A stretch of 43,197 nucleotides of DNA from a bacterium (GTDB taxonomy: Bacteria; Hydrothermota; UBA3073; JACQXS01; JAGMCI01). The position numbers were made by a program, and so were the translations under genes. The DNA lies in NCBI GenBank assembly GCA_030018315.1, contig JASEGA010000018.1, positions 1 to 43,197 on the forward strand, given 5' to 3'. Below the pieces are notes generated by a model. That model worked only from the letters and a program-made list of their open reading frames with translations. It was not told where the DNA came from and did no database searches. This document shows, one piece after another, positions 2,745-40,250 of this stretch; the stretch's first letter is position 1; each line of letters opens with the position of its first letter.

Positions 2745-3410
2745 ATGGTTTTAGAATTGGTATTTTTAATAATGAGTTTTGGTCAACTAAATGTTGCTCA
2801 CACTGAAATTACCGACTCTCTTGTAAGATATTATTTAGAAACGGGTGAACTAAAAAAGGTAGATGAACTTTCTAATGAAATCAACGATAATTTCTTACTC
2901 GGTGAGCTTGCTTATTTTAGTCACAAATTTGACAAAGCCATCAAATTCTACTCCCTGGTGCCGTTAGATTCTGAGGATGCAAATGATGCAATTTATCGGA
3001 TAATTTTTATTAAAGAAAATAAGAATGCAGAGCTACAAGATTATGTGACCGCAGAACTATTTGGTAGACAAAAGAAATGGGACAAGGGGATTGAAATTTT
3101 AAAAAAGATGAAGGAGAATAAATCAACAATTGCTCCTTCAGCTTCAATTCTTTTAGCAAACTTTATTGAACAAAAAGGCGACCTTAATGGAGCACTTAAA
3201 GAGTATCAAAATTTTATAAATAGATTTGATACAAATGTCATTGCAAACGATAGAGAAGCAATCTTGCCACAGATTTTATTAAAGATGGGCAAAATTTATA
3301 CTACACTGGGAAGAATAAAAGAAGCTAGTGAATCATATCGACAGATTTTACTTAAGTACCCAAAATCATGTGTTGCTCCTATCGCTAGAGAGAGACTTGA
3401 GAACTTATGA
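2745..3410 (+). CDS. Tetratricopeptide-repeat protein, probably exported
   Basis: The 221-residue protein begins with a short hydrophobic stretch (VLELVFLIMSF) that could be a minimal signal sequence. TPR-like helix pairs follow: NFLLGELAYFSHKFDKAIKFY near residues 50-70, a second around ILLANFIEQKGDLNGALKEY near 140-160, and a third LLKMGKIYTTLGRIKEASESYR near 190-210. TPRs are protein-binding scaffolds; no catalytic motif is present. The stop overlaps the start of the next gene by 4 bases (ATGA), which points to translational coupling and a shared job with the 'asparagine synthetase B'-like protein. The start at 2745 agrees with the promoter just upstream. Confidence 0.8.
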   Translation: MVLELVFLIMSFGQLNVAHTEITDSLVRYYLETGELKKVDELSNEINDNFLLGELAYFSHKFDKAIKFYSLVPLDSEDANDAIYRIIFIKENKNAELQDYVTAELFGRQKKWDKGIEILKKMKENKSTIAPSASILLANFIEQKGDLNGALKEYQNFINRFDTNVIANDREAILPQILLKMGKIYTTLGRIKEASESYRQILLKYPKSCVAPIARERLENL

Positions 3411-5840: not shown

Positions 5841-6755
5841 TTAATACGCTCCTTTTAGGGACAGTACCATTGGAATTGTGCGTAATAGGATTTTTAAGTC
5901 TGTCAACAGAGATTTGTTTGTTGCATAATAAAGGTCTAGAACTACCATATCATTGAAGGGGATAAGACTTCTACCCATTACTTGCCAGAGGCCTGTTATT
6001 CCTGGTTTTGTGCACAAGCGGGCTTTATGCCAGTCTTCATATAACTCAACTTCGTAAGGAATTGGAGGACGAGGACCTACTAAACTCATTTCGCCTCGTA
6101 GCACATTTATAAGTTGGGGCAGCTCGTCTATTGATAGGATTCTGAGCCATCTTCCAATTGGTGTTACCCTTGGATCATTTGTTAGCTTGTATACTTTCCT
6201 GCCTGACGGCAAGAGAGGTTGTCTGTCATTGCGAGCCACACCTATACTGTCATTGCAAGCGATAGCGAAGCAATCTATACCAAGGTCATTTTGGAGTTGG
6301 TCTTTTATAAATTTCTCAATGTAATTATAATGGATTTTTGGTTCATTTGAGGCTTCCATAGTTCTAAACTTGTAAAAATTAAATGTCTTACCAATCCCAT
6401 TAACCCGGACTTGACGAAATATGACAGGCCCCTTTGAACTTAACTTTGTTAGAATAGAACTAATAAGGAAGAGAGGTGCAGTTCCAATAATAGCTAATAC
6501 CCCAATAAAAATATCCATCACTCTTTTTAATAGATAATCTGCTTTTTGATATTTTTTAAAGATGAGATAGCCATTTTTTATAAGTTTTGAGAATAATTTA
6601 TCTGTTTTCACATATACATCTACAAAATCTACGTATCTCAAAACAATGTTTACAATATCTTTTGCACATAAGTTTGGGATATCTATTTTTACCATGTTAA
6701 TTCCAGGTGGTAAATCTCTATTTAAATCTTCAACCCTATTTATCACAAGTTCCAT
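5841..6755 (-). CDS. Polyprenyl-phosphate sugar-1-phosphate transferase (WbaP/EpsE-like), with repeat-encoded insertion
   Basis: 304 residues. This enzyme class transfers a sugar-phosphate from a nucleotide sugar to undecaprenyl phosphate, the first membrane step of exopolysaccharide synthesis. Visible landmarks are a basic/amphipathic KRVMD (about 77-81) with one hydrophobic helix (about 82-104), the GKTFNFYKFRTM motif (122-133), the DPRVTPIGRWLR...DELPQL block (194-216), MSLVGPRPP and KPGITGLWQVMGR near 255. The large N-terminal membrane part of WbaP is replaced by a short soluble stretch. Residues 160-186 (IDCFAIACNDS...LLPSGR) are encoded by a 78-base palindromic repeat composite and lie between two family motifs, so they are probably a tolerated insertion. 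It is the last gene of the SLBB-kinase-leuS run, 6 bases after leuS. Confidence 0.88.
   Translation of the reverse strand: MELVINRVEDLNRDLPPGINMVKIDIPNLCAKDIVNIVLRYVDFVDVYVKTDKLFSKLIKNGYLIFKKYQKADYLLKRVMDIFIGVLAIIGTAPLFLISSILTKLSSKGPVIFRQVRVNGIGKTFNFYKFRTMEASNEPKIHYNYIEKFIKDQLQNDLGIDCFAIACNDSIGVARNDRQPLLPSGRKVYKLTNDPRVTPIGRWLRILSIDELPQLINVLRGEMSLVGPRPPIPYEVELYEDWHKARLCTKPGITGLWQVMGRSLIPFNDMVVLDLYYATNKSLLTDLKILLRTIPMVLSLKGAY
6199..6276. repeat. Composite palindromic repeat inserted in frame in the sugar-transferase gene
   Basis: Plus-strand order: CTGCCTGACGGCAAG (6199-6213), a truncated GTCATTGCGAGC (6225-6236), then a full unit running from GTCATTGCAAGC to GCGAAGCAATCT (6249-6276). Both sequence types recur outside genes at 12909-12971 in the same order, and the second type again at 13035-13062. 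The total is 78 bases, exactly 26 codons, so the host frame is kept. Confidence 0.85.
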
Positions 6756-12908: not shown

Positions 12909-12971
12909 CTTGCCTGACGGTAGTTAGGAACCTCACTCAAAAAGTCATCGCGAGCGTGAGCGAAGCAATCT
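12909..12971. repeat. Intergenic copy of the composite palindromic repeat
   Basis: CTTGCCTGACGGTAG (12909-12923) followed by a unit from GTCATCGCGAGC to GCGAAGCAATCT (12944-12971). Same two parts in the same order as inside the sugar-transferase gene at 6199-6276. It lies between two divergent promoters. Confidence 0.8.
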
Positions 12972-13034: not shown

Positions 13035-13062
13035 GTCATTGCGAGCGTAAGCAAAGCAATCT
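13035..13062. repeat. Palindromic repeat unit between promoter and start codon of the Hcy methyltransferase/MTHFR gene
   Basis: Starts GTCATTGCGAGC and ends GCAAAGCAATCT; same 28-base family as 6249-6276 and 12944-12971. In the mRNA it would fold as a hairpin in the 5' leader. TATCT occurs on both sides (13020-13024 and 13069-13073). Confidence 0.8.
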
Positions 13063-17239: not shown

Positions 17240-17422
17240 GAGAGAATATCATTTTTAGCTGAAATTCTCTCAATATCTCTTATCTCTTTCAACCTCTATC
17301 CATTTTTCTTATTCCTTAAAAATCAGCACATACAAGGAGCAAACTCCCTAATCTCATGCACCCTCCAGTATTTAGATTTTAGGAGATGCCTCATAAATTT
17401 CAACTAAATTTAGCACACCTTC
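17240..17422. repeat. Direct repeat, copy 1 (downstream flank of the six-repeat cargo gene)
   Basis: 183 bases running from GAGAGAATATCATTTTTAG to TTTAGCACACCTTC that recur at 18884-19159 in the same orientation with few changes, apart from a roughly 90-base stretch missing here. The missing stretch is bounded by CCATTTTT/CCAATTTTT, so copy 1 looks like a deletion at that micro-repeat. The cargo gene lies exactly between the copies. The 37 bases from the metH stop to this repeat hold nothing I recognise. Confidence 0.9.
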
Positions 17423-17561: not shown

Positions 17562-18869
17562 CTACTTAATAATCGTAAGCTTCCTCGTCGCCGTGAACTT
17601 ACCTGCCTCCATTTTCACAAAGTAGATGCCATTGGGGAGTTCCTCAAGATTTACCGCAATCTCACGAGAGCCCGCACTGACTCCTATAGTCTTTACCAAC
17701 TTGCCTGAAAGGTCGTAAATCTTCAAACCGATTCTTTCTCTTTCGCTAATCTCTGACCACTGAATCCTAACCCTTGTAGTAAATGGATTTGGATAGATTG
17801 ACAATTGACAATCGCTAATTGGTAATTGAGAATCGGAAGTCTCATCAGCCCCCGACGGCCCATCTTTTAACCTTATAAGATAGACATCCCACCTGCCAGC
17901 ACCAAAAGACCATGTCAATCCTGCAATTATAAATCCACCATCCGCACACTCAAGAACTGAATAGCCCAAATCCCGGCTAGCTCCACCATAAGTTTTCGTC
18001 CACAGGGTATCTCCATTTGCTTTTGTCCTTATAAGATAGACATCCTCGCTAGAACTAGGAGTATAATATCCTGCCATTATAAATCCACTATCCGCACACT
18101 GATGAACTGACATGCCCACATCAAAGTTAGCTCCTCCATAAGTTTTAGTCCACAGGGTGTTGCCATTTGCATCTGTCCTTATAAGCCAGACATCAGCCGA
18201 GCCAGCACCAAAAGACCATGTACATCCTGCAATTATAAAGCCACCACCCGCACACTCAATAACTGAACAGCCCACATCATCGTCAGCCCCACCATAAGTT
18301 TTCGTCCACAGGGTATCTCCATTTGCATCTGTCCTTAGAAGCCAGACCTCCCTCCCGCCAGCACCAAAAGACCTTGTCTCTCCTGTAATTATAAATCCAC
18401 CACCCGCACACTTACCAACTGAATAGGCCGCATCATAGTTAGCTCCACCATAAGTTTTCGTCCACAGGGGGTTGCCATTTGCATCTGTCCTTACAAGATA
18501 GACATCAGCATCGCCAGCACCAAAAGACTTTGTCTCTCCTGCAATTATAAAGCCACCACCCGCACACTCATAAACTGACCAGCCCCAATCACAGTTAGTT
18601 CCACCATAAGTTTTCGTCCACAGGGTATCTCCATTTGCATCTGTCCTTATAAGATAGACATCATCCTCGCCAGCACCAAAAGACCATGTCCCTCCTGCAA
18701 TTATAAAGCCACCACCCGCACACTCCTGAACTGAATAGCCACAATCATCGCTACCTCCACCATAAGTTTTCGTCCATAGGGTATCAGGCTGTGCATGGAG
18801 GGGGGCAAAATTTTGAACCCCTACAACTGTCACAACCACACATCCACAAATTCCTAAAAATGAACGCAT
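17562..18869 (-). CDS. Secreted beta-propeller-like repeat protein with T9SS sorting domain
   Basis: 435 residues from the ATG at 18869. That start was chosen because it has GGAGG 4 nt upstream and gives a clean signal peptide ending LHA-Q (about residues 1-27); longer frame extensions read through the upstream direct repeat. Residues 29-337 are six copies of a 50-52-residue unit, each with WTKTYGG near the start, a GGFIIAG core and VYLIRTDANG at the end, as in beta-propeller or delta-60-type repeats. The last about 80 residues are a T9SS sorting domain (IYPNPF ... LKIYDLSGK ... NGIYFVKME). No catalytic residues are evident; it is a surface or secreted adhesin/scaffold candidate. The linker SDSQLPISDCQLSIY is coded by low-complexity ATTGACAATTG-like DNA. 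Confidence 0.88.
   Translation of the reverse strand: MRSFLGICGCVVVTVVGVQNFAPLHAQPDTLWTKTYGGGSDDCGYSVQECAGGGFIIAGGTWSFGAGEDDVYLIRTDANGDTLWTKTYGGTNCDWGWSVYECAGGGFIIAGETKSFGAGDADVYLVRTDANGNPLWTKTYGGANYDAAYSVGKCAGGGFIITGETRSFGAGGREVWLLRTDANGDTLWTKTYGGADDDVGCSVIECAGGGFIIAGCTWSFGAGSADVWLIRTDANGNTLWTKTYGGANFDVGMSVHQCADSGFIMAGYYTPSSSEDVYLIRTKANGDTLWTKTYGGASRDLGYSVLECADGGFIIAGLTWSFGAGRWDVYLIRLKDGPSGADETSDSQLPISDCQLSIYPNPFTTRVRIQWSEISERERIGLKIYDLSGKLVKTIGVSAGSREIAVNLEELPNGIYFVKMEAGKFTATRKLTIIK
17859..18785 (-). repeat. Six tandem coding repeats of about 156 bp
   Basis: Units of 52, 52, 52, 52, 50 and 51 codons. The DNA is nearly identical over blocks such as CCATAAGTTTTCGTCCACAG and CCATTTGCATCTGTCCTTA in every unit, which points to recent expansion or gene conversion rather than old divergence. 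Confidence 0.9.
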
Positions 18870-18883
18870 CCATCCTCCTTTCC

Positions 18884-19159
18884 GAGAGAATATCATTTTT
18901 AGTTGAAATTCTCTCAATATCTCCTATCTCTTTCAACCTCTATCCATTTTTATATTTTTATCACCCCTCTCCTCCAATCACTCCATTATTCTACAATCAC
19001 TAAAATCCCCTTATCAAGTTAGAAATTCCTGATACTCCAATTTTTCTTATTCCTTAAAAATCAGCACATACAAGAAGCAAACTCCCTAATCTCATGCACC
19101 TCCAGTATTTAGATTTTAGGAGATGCCTCATAAATTTCAACTAAATTTAGCACACCTTC
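18884..19159. repeat. Direct repeat, copy 2 (upstream flank/promoter side of the cargo gene)
   Basis: Matches 17240-17422 at both ends (18884-18952 and about 19040-19159) with about 90 extra bases between. It begins 6 bases upstream of the GGAGG of the cargo gene, so it must hold that gene's promoter and leader. Confidence 0.9.
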
Positions 19160-29585: not shown

Positions 29586-29632
29586 GCCTCTAATTTTTTC
29601 ACATGGTTTAAGTATAGTATCTTTATAATGAA

Positions 29633-29722
29633 ATGCTTAATAAGGTTCTAATAGCCAACCGTGGTGAGATACCAGTTCGTACCATTTTTTTTATCATATT
29701 GTGGGTAGTTGGGATAATCTAA
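29633..29722 (+). pseudogene. Truncated 5' end of a biotin carboxylase gene
   Basis: ATG CTT AAT AAG GTT ... encodes MLNKVLIANRGEIPVRT before the frame runs into unrelated sequence and stops at 29722. The first about 54 bases are roughly 85% identical to the intact biotin carboxylase start at 32338; most differences are at third positions. Upstream AGTATCTT also resembles the intact gene's -10 area. Homology ends near 29687, and no further carboxylase sequence appears before the insertion sequence. It is an old, diverged copy, not a recent duplication. Confidence 0.75.
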
Positions 29723-31967: not shown

Positions 31968-32300
31968 AGGACAAAATAAACGTATATAGAGGACAGATAC
32001 CCTGTTTTTTTGTTTTGTCTGAAAAAGAAACCCGATAATTAGGGAATTAAACAGACTAAAAGTTCAAAAGTTAAAAATTTATGTAGCTGTACTTCTTGCT
32101 GTAGCTTGTTTTGTATTTGATGTAGTGAATAATAATAATACAACGAGTTGTCCATACAAAATAAAATCCAAAAATTTAAGCAAGGCTGAAGCCTTGCCCT
32201 ACAATATTTATTCTGGGTCTGTGTAGTGAGATTCTTCGCTTCGTTCAGAATGACAATTTGTGTTGATTTACGACTTTTTCAGCAGGCTTACTCCTTTTTA
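31968..32300. other. Intergenic stretch with palindromic repeats and a start-less lipoprotein-like frame
   Basis: Two repeats lie here: GCAAGGCTGAAGCCTTGC (32180-32197, plus CCTAC) and GAGATTCTTCGCTTCG...AATGAC (32228-32254), the inverse of the repeat at 40222. A frame open from 32023 reads KLKIYVAVLLAVACFVF then DVV and NNNNTT, a membrane or lipoprotein-type start, through the first repeat (SKAEALPY) to a stop near 32227. It lacks ATG, GTG or TTG at a useful place, so it is at most a gene remnant. Confidence 0.4.
32228..32254. repeat. GTCATTCTGAGCGAAGCGAAG-type palindromic repeat, inverted copy
   Basis: Minus strand reads GTCATTCTGAACGAAGCGAA then GAATCTC, matching 40222-40246 with one change. 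Partner palindrome GCAAGGCT/AGCCTTGC lies 30 bases to the left. Confidence 0.8.
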
Positions 32301-32329
32301 TTGACAACTTGTATTTTTTAGTATATCTT
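32301..32329 (+). promoter_or_regulatory. Promoter of the biotin carboxylase gene, leaderless arrangement
   Basis: TTGACA 32301-32306, 17 nt, TATCTT 32324-32329, then 8 nt to ATG 32338. The -10 box equals that of the promoter at 12997-13025. Confidence 0.65.
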
Positions 32330-32337
32330 ATGGTGGG

Positions 32338-33708
32338 ATGCTTAATAAGGTTCTTATTGCCAATCGTGGTGAGATAGCGGTTCGTATTATCAGAGCTTGT
32401 AAGGAGCTTGGTATTTCGACAGTCGCTGTCTACTCTACAATTGATAAGTCAGCTTTACATACTCAGCTTGCGGATGAGTCTTGTTGTATTGGGGAGCCGC
32501 CGCCACTTGAGAGCTATCTAAATATGGATGTTATTATTGATACAGCTAAGAGGGTTGGTGCCGATGCTATTCATCCGGGTTACGGCTTCCTTGCTGAGAA
32601 TCCGGAGTTTGCAAAGAGGTGTGAGTCTGCTGGGGTTGTATTTATTGGACCGACATCTAAGGCATTGAGTCTTGTGGGTGACAAAGTAGTATCTCGTAAT
32701 ACTATGAATAAGGTAGGTATCCCTATAATTCCTGGTATGCATGAGGTAATCACCTCAAGCTACAGTAAGAATATAAAAGAGCTTAAAGAAGTAGCATCGA
32801 AAGTAGGCTATCCGGTCCTTGTGAAGGCATCGCTTGGTGGTGGCAAGGGGATGCGTATTGTTAAGAATGAAAAGGAGCTTGAGAATGCTATATCTGCAGG
32901 TAAGCGTGAGGCTATGTCTGCGTTTGGGGATGACTCGGTGTATCTTGAGAAATATATAGAGAAGCCACATCATGTAGAGTTTCAGGTATTAGCGGACAAC
33001 TTCGGTAATGTAGTTCATGTATTTGAGCGTGAGTGTTCAATTCAGAGAAGGTATCAGAAGGTAGTGGAAGAGACTCCATCGCAAGCACTTACTCCTGAGC
33101 TTAGGGAAAAAATGGGTGAAGTAGCTAAAAAGGTGATAAAAGTGGCTGGCTATACAAATGCGGGGACAGTTGAATTCTTACTTGATGAGAATAAGAATTT
33201 CTACTTCCTTGAAGTAAATGCAAGGCTTCAAGTTGAACACCCAATAACTGAGTTAACTACAGGTGTAGATTTAGTTAAACAGCAAATTTTAATTGCGGGG
33301 GGTGAGAAATTAACTCTTAAACAAGAGAATTTAGCACAGCGTGGTCATGCTATAGAGGCACGAATTTATGCTGAAGATGCTGAAACTGATTTTCTGCCAT
33401 CACCTGGCAAAATCCATTTCCTTAAAGAGCCACAGGGACCTGGTGTAAGAGTGGATTCTGGTATATACTCTGGGTGTGAAGTTTCGCCCTATTATGACCC
33501 AATCCTATCTAAACTTATTGTCTGGGCAGAGACACGTGAATTTGCACGTAGGCGGTTAGTGCAGGCATTAAAAGGGTATGTAATTTTAGGAATAAAGACG
33601 ACTATTCCATTCCTAATTGATGTTATAGAACACCCTAAATTTATAAAGACTGAGACGACTTCTTCACCATGGCAAGAGATAGGAGAATGGGAAATGTGTT
33701 CTCATTGA
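32338..33708 (+). CDS. Biotin carboxylase (acetyl-/propionyl-CoA carboxylase or pyruvate carboxylase subunit A)
   Basis: 456 residues. It carboxylates biotin on BCCP using ATP and bicarbonate. Landmarks: LIANRGEIAVRIIRA at the start, IHPGYGFLAENPEFA near 80, the ATP-grasp glycine loop KASLGGGKGMRIV near 160, HVEFQVLAD, ERECSIQRRYQKVVEE, FLEVNARLQVEHP near 285 and YDPILSKLIVWA near 380. The next gene is its biotin carrier. No carboxyltransferase subunit is in the window, so the acyl acceptor cannot be settled; the beta-oxidation genes downstream favour an acyl-CoA carboxylase. Confidence 0.95.
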   Translation: MLNKVLIANRGEIAVRIIRACKELGISTVAVYSTIDKSALHTQLADESCCIGEPPPLESYLNMDVIIDTAKRVGADAIHPGYGFLAENPEFAKRCESAGVVFIGPTSKALSLVGDKVVSRNTMNKVGIPIIPGMHEVITSSYSKNIKELKEVASKVGYPVLVKASLGGGKGMRIVKNEKELENAISAGKREAMSAFGDDSVYLEKYIEKPHHVEFQVLADNFGNVVHVFERECSIQRRYQKVVEETPSQALTPELREKMGEVAKKVIKVAGYTNAGTVEFLLDENKNFYFLEVNARLQVEHPITELTTGVDLVKQQILIAGGEKLTLKQENLAQRGHAIEARIYAEDAETDFLPSPGKIHFLKEPQGPGVRVDSGIYSGCEVSPYYDPILSKLIVWAETREFARRRLVQALKGYVILGIKTTIPFLIDVIEHPKFIKTETTSSPWQEIGEWEMCSH

Positions 33709-38259: not shown

Positions 38260-38290
38260 TTGACAATCTGTAATAGATGAAGTGTATTTT
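38260..38290 (+). promoter_or_regulatory. Promoter of the DUF3160 gene, leaderless arrangement
   Basis: TTGACA 38260-38265, 17 nt, TGTATT 38283-38288 (or TATTTT 38285-38290), then 6-8 nt to ATG 38297. An upstream GTG at 38282 lies inside the spacer and cannot be the start. Confidence 0.55.
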
Positions 38291-38296
38291 AAAACA

Positions 38297-40231
38297 ATGA
38301 GTTTATTTATCTTTCTTTTTATCTTTGCAATTTCTACGCAAATTGAGAAAAAATTGCAGACACGCGACTTTGTAATAGTGCCCACTAAGGAAAAGAGTAT
38401 TTACGATATATATGAAGGGTGTAAGAAAGCAGATGAACCTATCTTTGTAACACAAGACCTTATTTTACATACTACTCACATATTTTTTGACTATACACTA
38501 CGGATACTTGAAATTGATAACCTGAAACCAAAACTTGATACACTTACGATAAAGATGTTTGAATTAAGTATGAGTCAAGCAAAACAGTTAAAGTATGAAC
38601 CTACAAAACTATCTGCTCTTAAGAATGTTGCCTTCTTTGGGGTAGCAGCTAAATTGCTTGGAATGGAACTACATGAGAGATTACCTGAGAGTGTGGGACA
38701 AGAGATTGAGCGTGAACTTGAACTAATTGAAGCCCATACTGGCACTTTTCATTCACCAATTTTTGGCTATCGTGAAGATTACACCCAATACATACCACGT
38801 GGCCACTATACACGAAACAATGAATTTGAGCGCTATTTTAAAGCAATGATGTGGTATGGCCGTATAGGATTTTATCTTCAACCCCATCCAACTATGTATT
38901 ATCCTAAAGAAGTAAATTCAATTAAAGAAGGATTAAAGCTTACAAGAATGGCACTCCTAATAACAAAAATTGTTAAATCATCGTCTGAATTAGCAAGACT
39001 TTGGGACGAGATATATAAGCCAACAATATTCTTTACAGGAAGAGCTGAAGACTTTACTATCCACGATTATAGTCCATTTGTAGATGATATAGACCTATCT
39101 TCAGATTCTTCAATTCTTCTATTTATAGACAAGGCAAAAACATTGCCACAGCCTAAGATTATATCAACTGCAGTTGCAGATACAGTTGGACTACAGGGAT
39201 TTAGATTTATGGGACAGCGGTTTATACCTGATTCATATATATTACAAAATCTTGTCTATTCAAAAGTAACTCGCTACACTGGGAGTGGTAACCCCTTTAC
39301 ACTTGAGATGACTCTTCTCGGTCCAATGCGTTGCTTTCCCAGGGCGCTTGATGTTATGTGGGTGTTTGGGAGTGAGGCTGCTGGAGACATATTGAAGGAA
39401 GAGGGTGATACAGATTATATAGATTATATCAGTCAAGTTAATAAACTAAAAGAAGAGTTTGCAAAATTGCCTGTATCTCAGTGGAAAGACAACCTTTATT
39501 GGAGGTTATTATACGCTGTTAAATTACTTGTAACACATCCACATAAGGGATATCCAAGCTTTATGCAATCAAGACTCTGGAGGCTGAAAGAGCTTAACAC
39601 TGCATTAGGAGCATGGGCAGAGTTACGCCATGATACTATCCTTTACGCAAAGCAAAGCTATACAGTAGAAGCATTAAGTATACCGAGACCCATAGAACTC
39701 ACTAAAGGATGGGTTGAGCCATATCCTGAGATTTACAGGTGGATAAGTGAACTTGTGAACGAACTTGCTAAAATTGGTGGATACCCAATTGAAGTTAAAA
39801 ATAAGATAATTAGTTTTTCTGAAATCTTAATAAGACTCAGTGAAATTTCAAATAAGGAACTTAATGGGAAAGAGCTTTCAGATGATGACTATAAACTTAT
39901 ATGGAATATTGGTAGTATTCTTAAAAATGTGACCCAGTTTTCGACCCAACTAATGAGTAGGATTACTTCAGGAACTGACGAAAATATGGCTGTAGTCGCA
40001 GATGTTCATACGGACACAAATTCTAAAAAGGTGCTTGAGGAAGGAATTGGATATCCATCTGTAATCTATGTTAAACTACCGGATAAAAGAATATTGAAGG
40101 GTAGTGTATTTTCTTATTATGAATTTAAGTTAGGATTAGCAGACCGTCTTACAGATGAGACATGGCAAGAGCAAATTGAAGAAAAGCCACCTCAACTACA
40201 AAAATGGCTACTCCCACTTATGTCATTCTGA
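38297..40231 (+). CDS. DUF3160 exported protein
   Basis: 644 residues from ATG 38297, which gives a signal peptide (LFIFLFIFAIST-Q) and agrees with the promoter. Family landmarks: FVIVPTKEKSIYDIYEG, PIFVTQDLILHTTHIFFDYT near residue 50, ERYFKAMMWYGRIGFYL, GFRFMGQRFIPDSYILQNLV, ELNTALGAWAELRHDTILYAKQSY and MAVVADVHTDTNSKKVLEEG. These mark DUF3160, a family of secreted proteins of unknown function common in anaerobic and thermophilic bacteria. The final MSF-stop (ATGTCATTCTGA) is formed by a palindromic repeat. Confidence 0.85.
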   Translation: MSLFIFLFIFAISTQIEKKLQTRDFVIVPTKEKSIYDIYEGCKKADEPIFVTQDLILHTTHIFFDYTLRILEIDNLKPKLDTLTIKMFELSMSQAKQLKYEPTKLSALKNVAFFGVAAKLLGMELHERLPESVGQEIERELELIEAHTGTFHSPIFGYREDYTQYIPRGHYTRNNEFERYFKAMMWYGRIGFYLQPHPTMYYPKEVNSIKEGLKLTRMALLITKIVKSSSELARLWDEIYKPTIFFTGRAEDFTIHDYSPFVDDIDLSSDSSILLFIDKAKTLPQPKIISTAVADTVGLQGFRFMGQRFIPDSYILQNLVYSKVTRYTGSGNPFTLEMTLLGPMRCFPRALDVMWVFGSEAAGDILKEEGDTDYIDYISQVNKLKEEFAKLPVSQWKDNLYWRLLYAVKLLVTHPHKGYPSFMQSRLWRLKELNTALGAWAELRHDTILYAKQSYTVEALSIPRPIELTKGWVEPYPEIYRWISELVNELAKIGGYPIEVKNKIISFSEILIRLSEISNKELNGKELSDDDYKLIWNIGSILKNVTQFSTQLMSRITSGTDENMAVVADVHTDTNSKKVLEEGIGYPSVIYVKLPDKRILKGSVFSYYEFKLGLADRLTDETWQEQIEEKPPQLQKWLLPLMSF

Positions 40232-40250
40232 GCGAAGCGAAGAATCTCTG
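40222..40250. repeat. Palindromic repeat supplying the DUF3160 stop codon
   Basis: GTCATTCTGAGCGAAGCGAA then GAATCTCTG. The TGA of the repeat is the stop codon of the DUF3160 gene at 40229-40231. Inverse copy at 32228-32254; related ends at 25653-25691. Confidence 0.85.

Follow-up and report, generated by a model that had tools for sequence, protein, structure and literature searches.

In-frame insertion of short palindromic repeats in a sugar-1-phosphate transferase gene and other protein genes of an uncultivated WOR-3-type bacterium

How does a conserved membrane enzyme come to carry short palindromic repeats within its reading frame? This question arises from a gene for a sugar-1-phosphate transferase on a stretch of 43,197 nucleotides (hereafter the window), which is contig 18 of a 1.95 Mb genome in 74 contigs, probably from the WOR-3/Stahlbacteria group. 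We favor, with a probability of roughly 85%, the reading that positions 6199–6276 represent an in-frame insertion of short non-autonomous REP-type hairpin repeats, i.e., a CGTC/TGTC-tagged A unit, a truncated A unit, and a B unit. The locus adds a well-supported case, from a new phylum, to a phenomenon already described in Rickettsia and for REP elements, rather than a new kind of system. It indicates that the in-frame entry of palindromic repeats into protein genes, best known from Rickettsia, is also extensive in an uncultivated phylum, where it affects core genes such as those for MurE, MtaB, and DNA polymerase I.

The insert in the sugar transferase

The host gene, the insert, and its component repeats are located as follows:

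5841–6755, minus strand: host gene, encoding a 304-aa membrane sugar-1-phosphate transferase (Bac_transf, PF02397; EPS_sugtrans-like)
approx. 6196–6279, minus strand: net insertion relative to same-order orthologues, about 28–30 residues (...IDCFAIACNDSIGVARNDRQPLLPSGR...); 54 residues here compared to 24–26 in L003–L008
6200–6217, plus strand: family B unit TGCCTGACGGCAAGAGAG, with stem TGCC/GGCA
6225–6239, plus strand: family A unit in truncated form GTCATTGCGAGCCAC, located upstream of the full one, identified by sequence inspection
6249–6276, plus strand: full family A hairpin GTCATTGCAAGCGATAGCGAAGCAATCT, with one mismatch to the consensus

The protein encoded by ORF 5841–6755 matches PF02397, the bacterial sugar transferase domain, with E = 6.8e-58. 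As proposed in the initial annotation, the 78 bp from 6199 to 6276 are in frame, correspond to codons 160–186 between the KFRTM and DPRVTPIGR motifs, and contain no stop codon. A transferase match was found in 58 of 60 relatives, and alignments to those of the same order stop at residues 152–155 and restart at residues 185–186. In a multiple alignment, the distance from the end of KFRTM to the VYKL block was 24–26 residues in six same-order orthologues (L003–L008) compared to 54 here, which indicates that approximately 28–30 residues were inserted. The predicted gap in orthologues therefore exists and the in-frame insertion stands; however, the exact limits initially given (78 bp, residues 160–186) do not, since the net insertion spans approximately 6196–6279.

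The nearest relative having a transferase orthologue shares only 66% identity with this protein. In G001, the sole other genome of the same family, 42 residues occupy the insert site and there are extra insertions elsewhere in the transferase; the one hairpin tested among these inserts for being a repeated palindrome, TCCCGACTTCAGTCGGGA, occurs once in that genome. The transferase of G005 has an insertion at another position. Differing in-frame insertions elsewhere in the transferase gene, e.g., SARRPAGGQAGRRAGGR and SERSEASQKKWRASASHD, were observed in two related genomes (L002 1072–2151 and L008). A single-sequence AlphaFold prediction of the host transferase gave a mean pLDDT of 34. The translated transferase probably carries an additional stretch of peptide between two conserved blocks. 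The earlier proposal that a mobile repeat can enter an ORF, keep its frame, and be translated is borne out for the insertion relative to orthologues and for the open frame; mobility and translation are inferred.

Repeat families across the genome and in other genes

Further repeat units occur in the window, among them an in-frame copy that the initial annotation overlooked (3237–3264):

2745–3410, plus strand: TPR protein, 221 aa, carrying the family A copy at 3237–3264
3237–3264, plus strand: second in-frame family A copy, encoding VIANDREAI in the TPR protein, at a 7-residue orthologue gap
12911–12928, plus strand: intergenic family B copy, adjoining the family A copy at 12944–12971
12944–12971, plus strand: intergenic family A copy
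13035–13062, plus strand: intergenic family A copy
32229–32254, minus strand: intergenic family C copy GTCATTCTGAACGAAGCGAAGAATCT
40222–40247, plus strand: family C copy, which overlaps ORF 38282–40231 at its 3' end

The stretch in the transferase gene consists of a B unit, a truncated A unit, and a complete A unit; half units resembling the truncated one also lie upstream of other family A copies. Positions 12909–12971 had been described as the same two-part repeat, but the A and B units start 49 nt apart in the gene and 33 nt apart at the intergenic site, where the middle unit (6225–6239) is absent. Such differences in spacing and middle parts led us to reject a single composite mobile element in favor of adjacent families.

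We searched the genome allowing up to three mismatches for families A and C and up to two for family B, with reversed sequences as the control. The full 28-nt unit of family A (GTCATTGCGAGCGWKAGCGAAGCAATCT) was found at 30 places compared to none for its control, i.e., at a copy number well beyond chance, as the initial annotation had anticipated. Family B (TGCCTGACGGYARNNAGG) occurred at 36 places (reversed control: one) and family C (GTCATTCTGAGCNAAGCGAAGAATCT) at 55 (reversed control: none). For each family, 30 copies were inspected with their flanks (90 in total, each counted once) and scored as ORF-internal if they lay in an ORF of at least 110 aa, at least 20 residues from its start and at least 15 from its end. 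By this definition, 22 of the 90 copies fall inside approximately 20 ORFs, with family A alone contributing 5 of 30. Given that long ORFs make up about 90% of the window, this is a strong depletion of the repeats from coding DNA, which would be expected of a selfish element that is kept where it does little harm. Four of the six frames of family A are free of stops and all four are in use among the inspected copies. Family A units also supply the last codons and the stop of two ORFs of this genome (L034 and L039; ending TRLLR).

Comparisons with orthologues and solved homologues place gaps at the repeats in several other proteins. MtaB contains two inserts, from families A and C, with orthologue gaps of about 31 and 54 aa over the repeats, and a gap of about 12–13 aa coincides with the repeat in a hydrogenase maturation protease. 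Relative to solved homologues, there is a 9-residue gap at PALPSGRFA in MurE (8w9z), a gap of about 10 residues at TPVILSEANNL in a lactate/glycolate dehydrogenase (7qh2), and a 5-residue gap at the repeat in PurC. DNA polymerase I carries two family B copies, and a SpoIID-like protein, named from sequence reading, carries one B and one C copy. Across the genes where it was measurable, among approximately 20 with in-frame repeats, the added length is 5–54 aa. These "occupied" genes provide a natural set for testing the neutrality of the inserts. Insert lengths vary and differ from the unit length, e.g., the 7-aa gap in the TPR protein (window 2745–3410) corresponds to a net gain of 21 nt, although the unit measures 28 nt; insertion may therefore include loss of neighboring bases or proceed by another mechanism. 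No target-site duplication was seen.

Hairpin structure, known relatives, and spread across phyla

Repeat units are 26–34 bp long. The stem of family A begins ATTGC/GCAAT and is split by an internal loop from a second, central stem that varies between copies yet stays complementary. Among 35 same-phylum sequences with a 12-nt center, 106 of 140 pairs were complementary at the four inner pairs, the only ones unfixed by the search pattern, compared to a mean of 77 and a maximum of 94 in 5000 shuffles, a score that kinship among the sequences can raise. Such covariation suggests that selection acts on the hairpin, as DNA or RNA. The fold of the family A hairpin from this genome is weak (z = −0.75). 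Family A-like hairpins are present in 38 of 147 genomes of the phylum, with no control matches.

The parallel with Rickettsia palindromic elements (RPEs) drawn in the initial annotation holds, in that a short repeat is inserted in frame in protein genes. Its statement that the sequences are unrelated is not supported: going by published tag descriptions, family A carries the YGTC/ATGAC tag of the CGTC-type REP superfamily that includes RPE-4 and RPE-6. The motif ATGAC (reverse complement GTCAT) is a hallmark of RPE-4, RPE-6, and RPE-7 (PMC3767692), and RPE-6 and RPE-4 have been classed as CGTC-1 and CGTC-4 REPs, in which the tag is often TGTC (PMC3733652). Like these three elements, the repeats described here insert in frame in diverse protein genes, have in family A the ATGAC/GTCAT motif (PMC3767692), and may occur as several types in one gene. 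In contrast, RPE-4, RPE-6, and RPE-7 are about 95–136 bp long in R. conorii (PMC2267715; RPEs overall about 95–150 bp), compared to the short units here, and Rickettsia is an obligate intracellular alphaproteobacterium rather than an uncultivated WOR-3-type bacterium.

CGTC-type REPs as a class have a terminal CGTC tag, often TGTC or CCTC, an 8–9 bp stem from the complementary AT with a loop of 4–5 nt, and a mostly CCA unpaired tail, with inverted (head-to-head) dimers predominating (PMC3733652). Family A resembles them in being a short hairpin with a T/C-GTC tag followed by a stem beginning AT. Both are also mostly intergenic, with some copies inside ORFs in frame, and no flanking transposase is known for the class (Di Nocera et al., 2013, PMC3733652). 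Family A departs from the class in its stem, which is broken by the internal loop and has a variable, covarying center, in its CT(C) tail instead of CCA, and in its phylum range, which is far wider than the five phyla listed in 2013 (PMC3733652). The CCA tail is usual but not universal, so the CTC tail weakens membership of the class without excluding it. The Neisseria dRS3 repeats (CGTC-1, PMC3733652) have the same class of tag, but belong to another CGTC family and form large clusters in Neisseria (PMC3733652), whereas the copies here are scattered. GTAG REPs and REPINs, with their RAYT (TnpA_REP) transposases, are likewise short palindromes with inverted dimers, occasional intragenic copies, and Y1 transposase genes in the genome; unlike these, the tag here is YGTC rather than GTAG, and the Y1 loci of this genome have no flanking repeats. 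Literature searches by DNA motif or encoded peptide returned nothing relevant.

At least 119 stretches of the GTDB collection contain the exact family A 28-mer, from more than 20 phyla by record titles. These include metagenome bins and isolates (Calothrix parasitica NIES-267, Tenacibaculum lutimaris), complete isolate genomes among them. GTC is preceded by T in 54 of 84 exact matches and by C in 24, i.e., YGTCATT in 78 of 84, and the tail is CTC in most; beyond this T/C and the C after the unit, the flanks are unconserved. By inspection, many cross-phylum copies show an inverted partner, and most copies in this genome do not. Novosphingobium aromaticivorans, a CGTC-2 host (PMC3733652), carries a related unit between genes, downstream of one for a dioxygenase. 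Occurrence of an exact 28-mer in unrelated phyla, without conservation of its flanks, requires that the unit either moves as a defined piece or is strongly constrained. A hairpin that is identical in more than 20 phyla among the matches listed is unusually widespread, and makes it easier to address how CGTC-type REPs are mobilized.

Mobilization, alternative origins, and other repeats in the window

In the model we propose, the units would spread through the genome mostly into intergenic DNA, possibly mobilized in trans as single-stranded hairpins by a Y1/HUH or other transposase. A copy landing in a gene would persist only if its net length is divisible by three, its frame is stop-free, and the site tolerates extra residues; the resulting insert would be translated and near-neutral. 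This genome has two Y1 transposase genes (L061 and L062), and no family A units were found in the flanks of either. Across all 41 Y1 loci examined, 40 lack flanking family A units and one has them, so no dedicated enzyme was found; CGTC-type REPs are said to lack one (PMC3733652). At the exception, in G050 (L274 1124–2022; G050:C2:240123-241021), two same-orientation family A units approximately 0.9 kb apart enclose a Y1 transposase-like gene. The arrangement resembles a REPtron or an IS200 element. Among the 147 genomes of the phylum, a Y1 gene is present in 35 of 38 repeat carriers compared to 52 of 109 others (Fisher p = 7e-7, with relatedness and genome size uncontrolled). We regard this association and the G050 locus as a lead, not a result. 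A bolder reading, in which family A is one hairpin element across most bacterial phyla, moved in trans by Y1/HUH transposases, with G050 providing the first candidate "REPtron" for CGTC-type REPs, appears to us a long shot.

Could the repeats instead have arisen in place, or been duplicated through recombination, template switching, or gene conversion between repeats, with selection keeping the in-frame outcomes? Truncated and adjacent units at 6200–6276 would fit such an origin, as would the variable net lengths (21 nt net for a 28-nt unit) and the lack of a dedicated transposase among the 41 loci, but it is hard to reconcile with the exact 28-mer in unrelated phyla between unconserved flanks; we consider it unlikely, if deserving of some weight. 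That the inserted peptides have been domesticated, i.e., selected for a function such as a new loop or regulation rather than just tolerated, is improbable. The inserts do sit between conserved blocks of intact genes, and segments encoded by Rickettsia RPEs lie in solvent-exposed areas (PMC3767692); however, the copies fall in many unrelated proteins, use four frames, and encode differing peptides, and copies are strongly depleted in coding DNA.

An artifact, whether a repeat that joined unrelated contigs during assembly or a pseudogene open by chance, is very improbable. The assembly is metagenome-like, with its 74 contigs, and repeats are classic points of misassembly, but both sides of the repeat match one and the same orthologue, in order, in several genomes, and approximately 20 ORFs, including those for MurE and DNA polymerase I, have intact motifs and no stops. 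Insertion of hairpin repeats of the REP type remains our preferred reading of the transferase locus.

Two other sets of repeated sequence were observed in the window. Direct repeats at 17240–17422 and 18884–19159, which are 97–100% identical, flank ORF 17562–18917, itself containing a 156-bp tandem array. In addition, a biotin carboxylase-like gene has a second copy of its start (MLNKVLIANRGEI), 85% identical, 2.7 kb upstream of the intact ORF (29623–29681 and 32328–32386).
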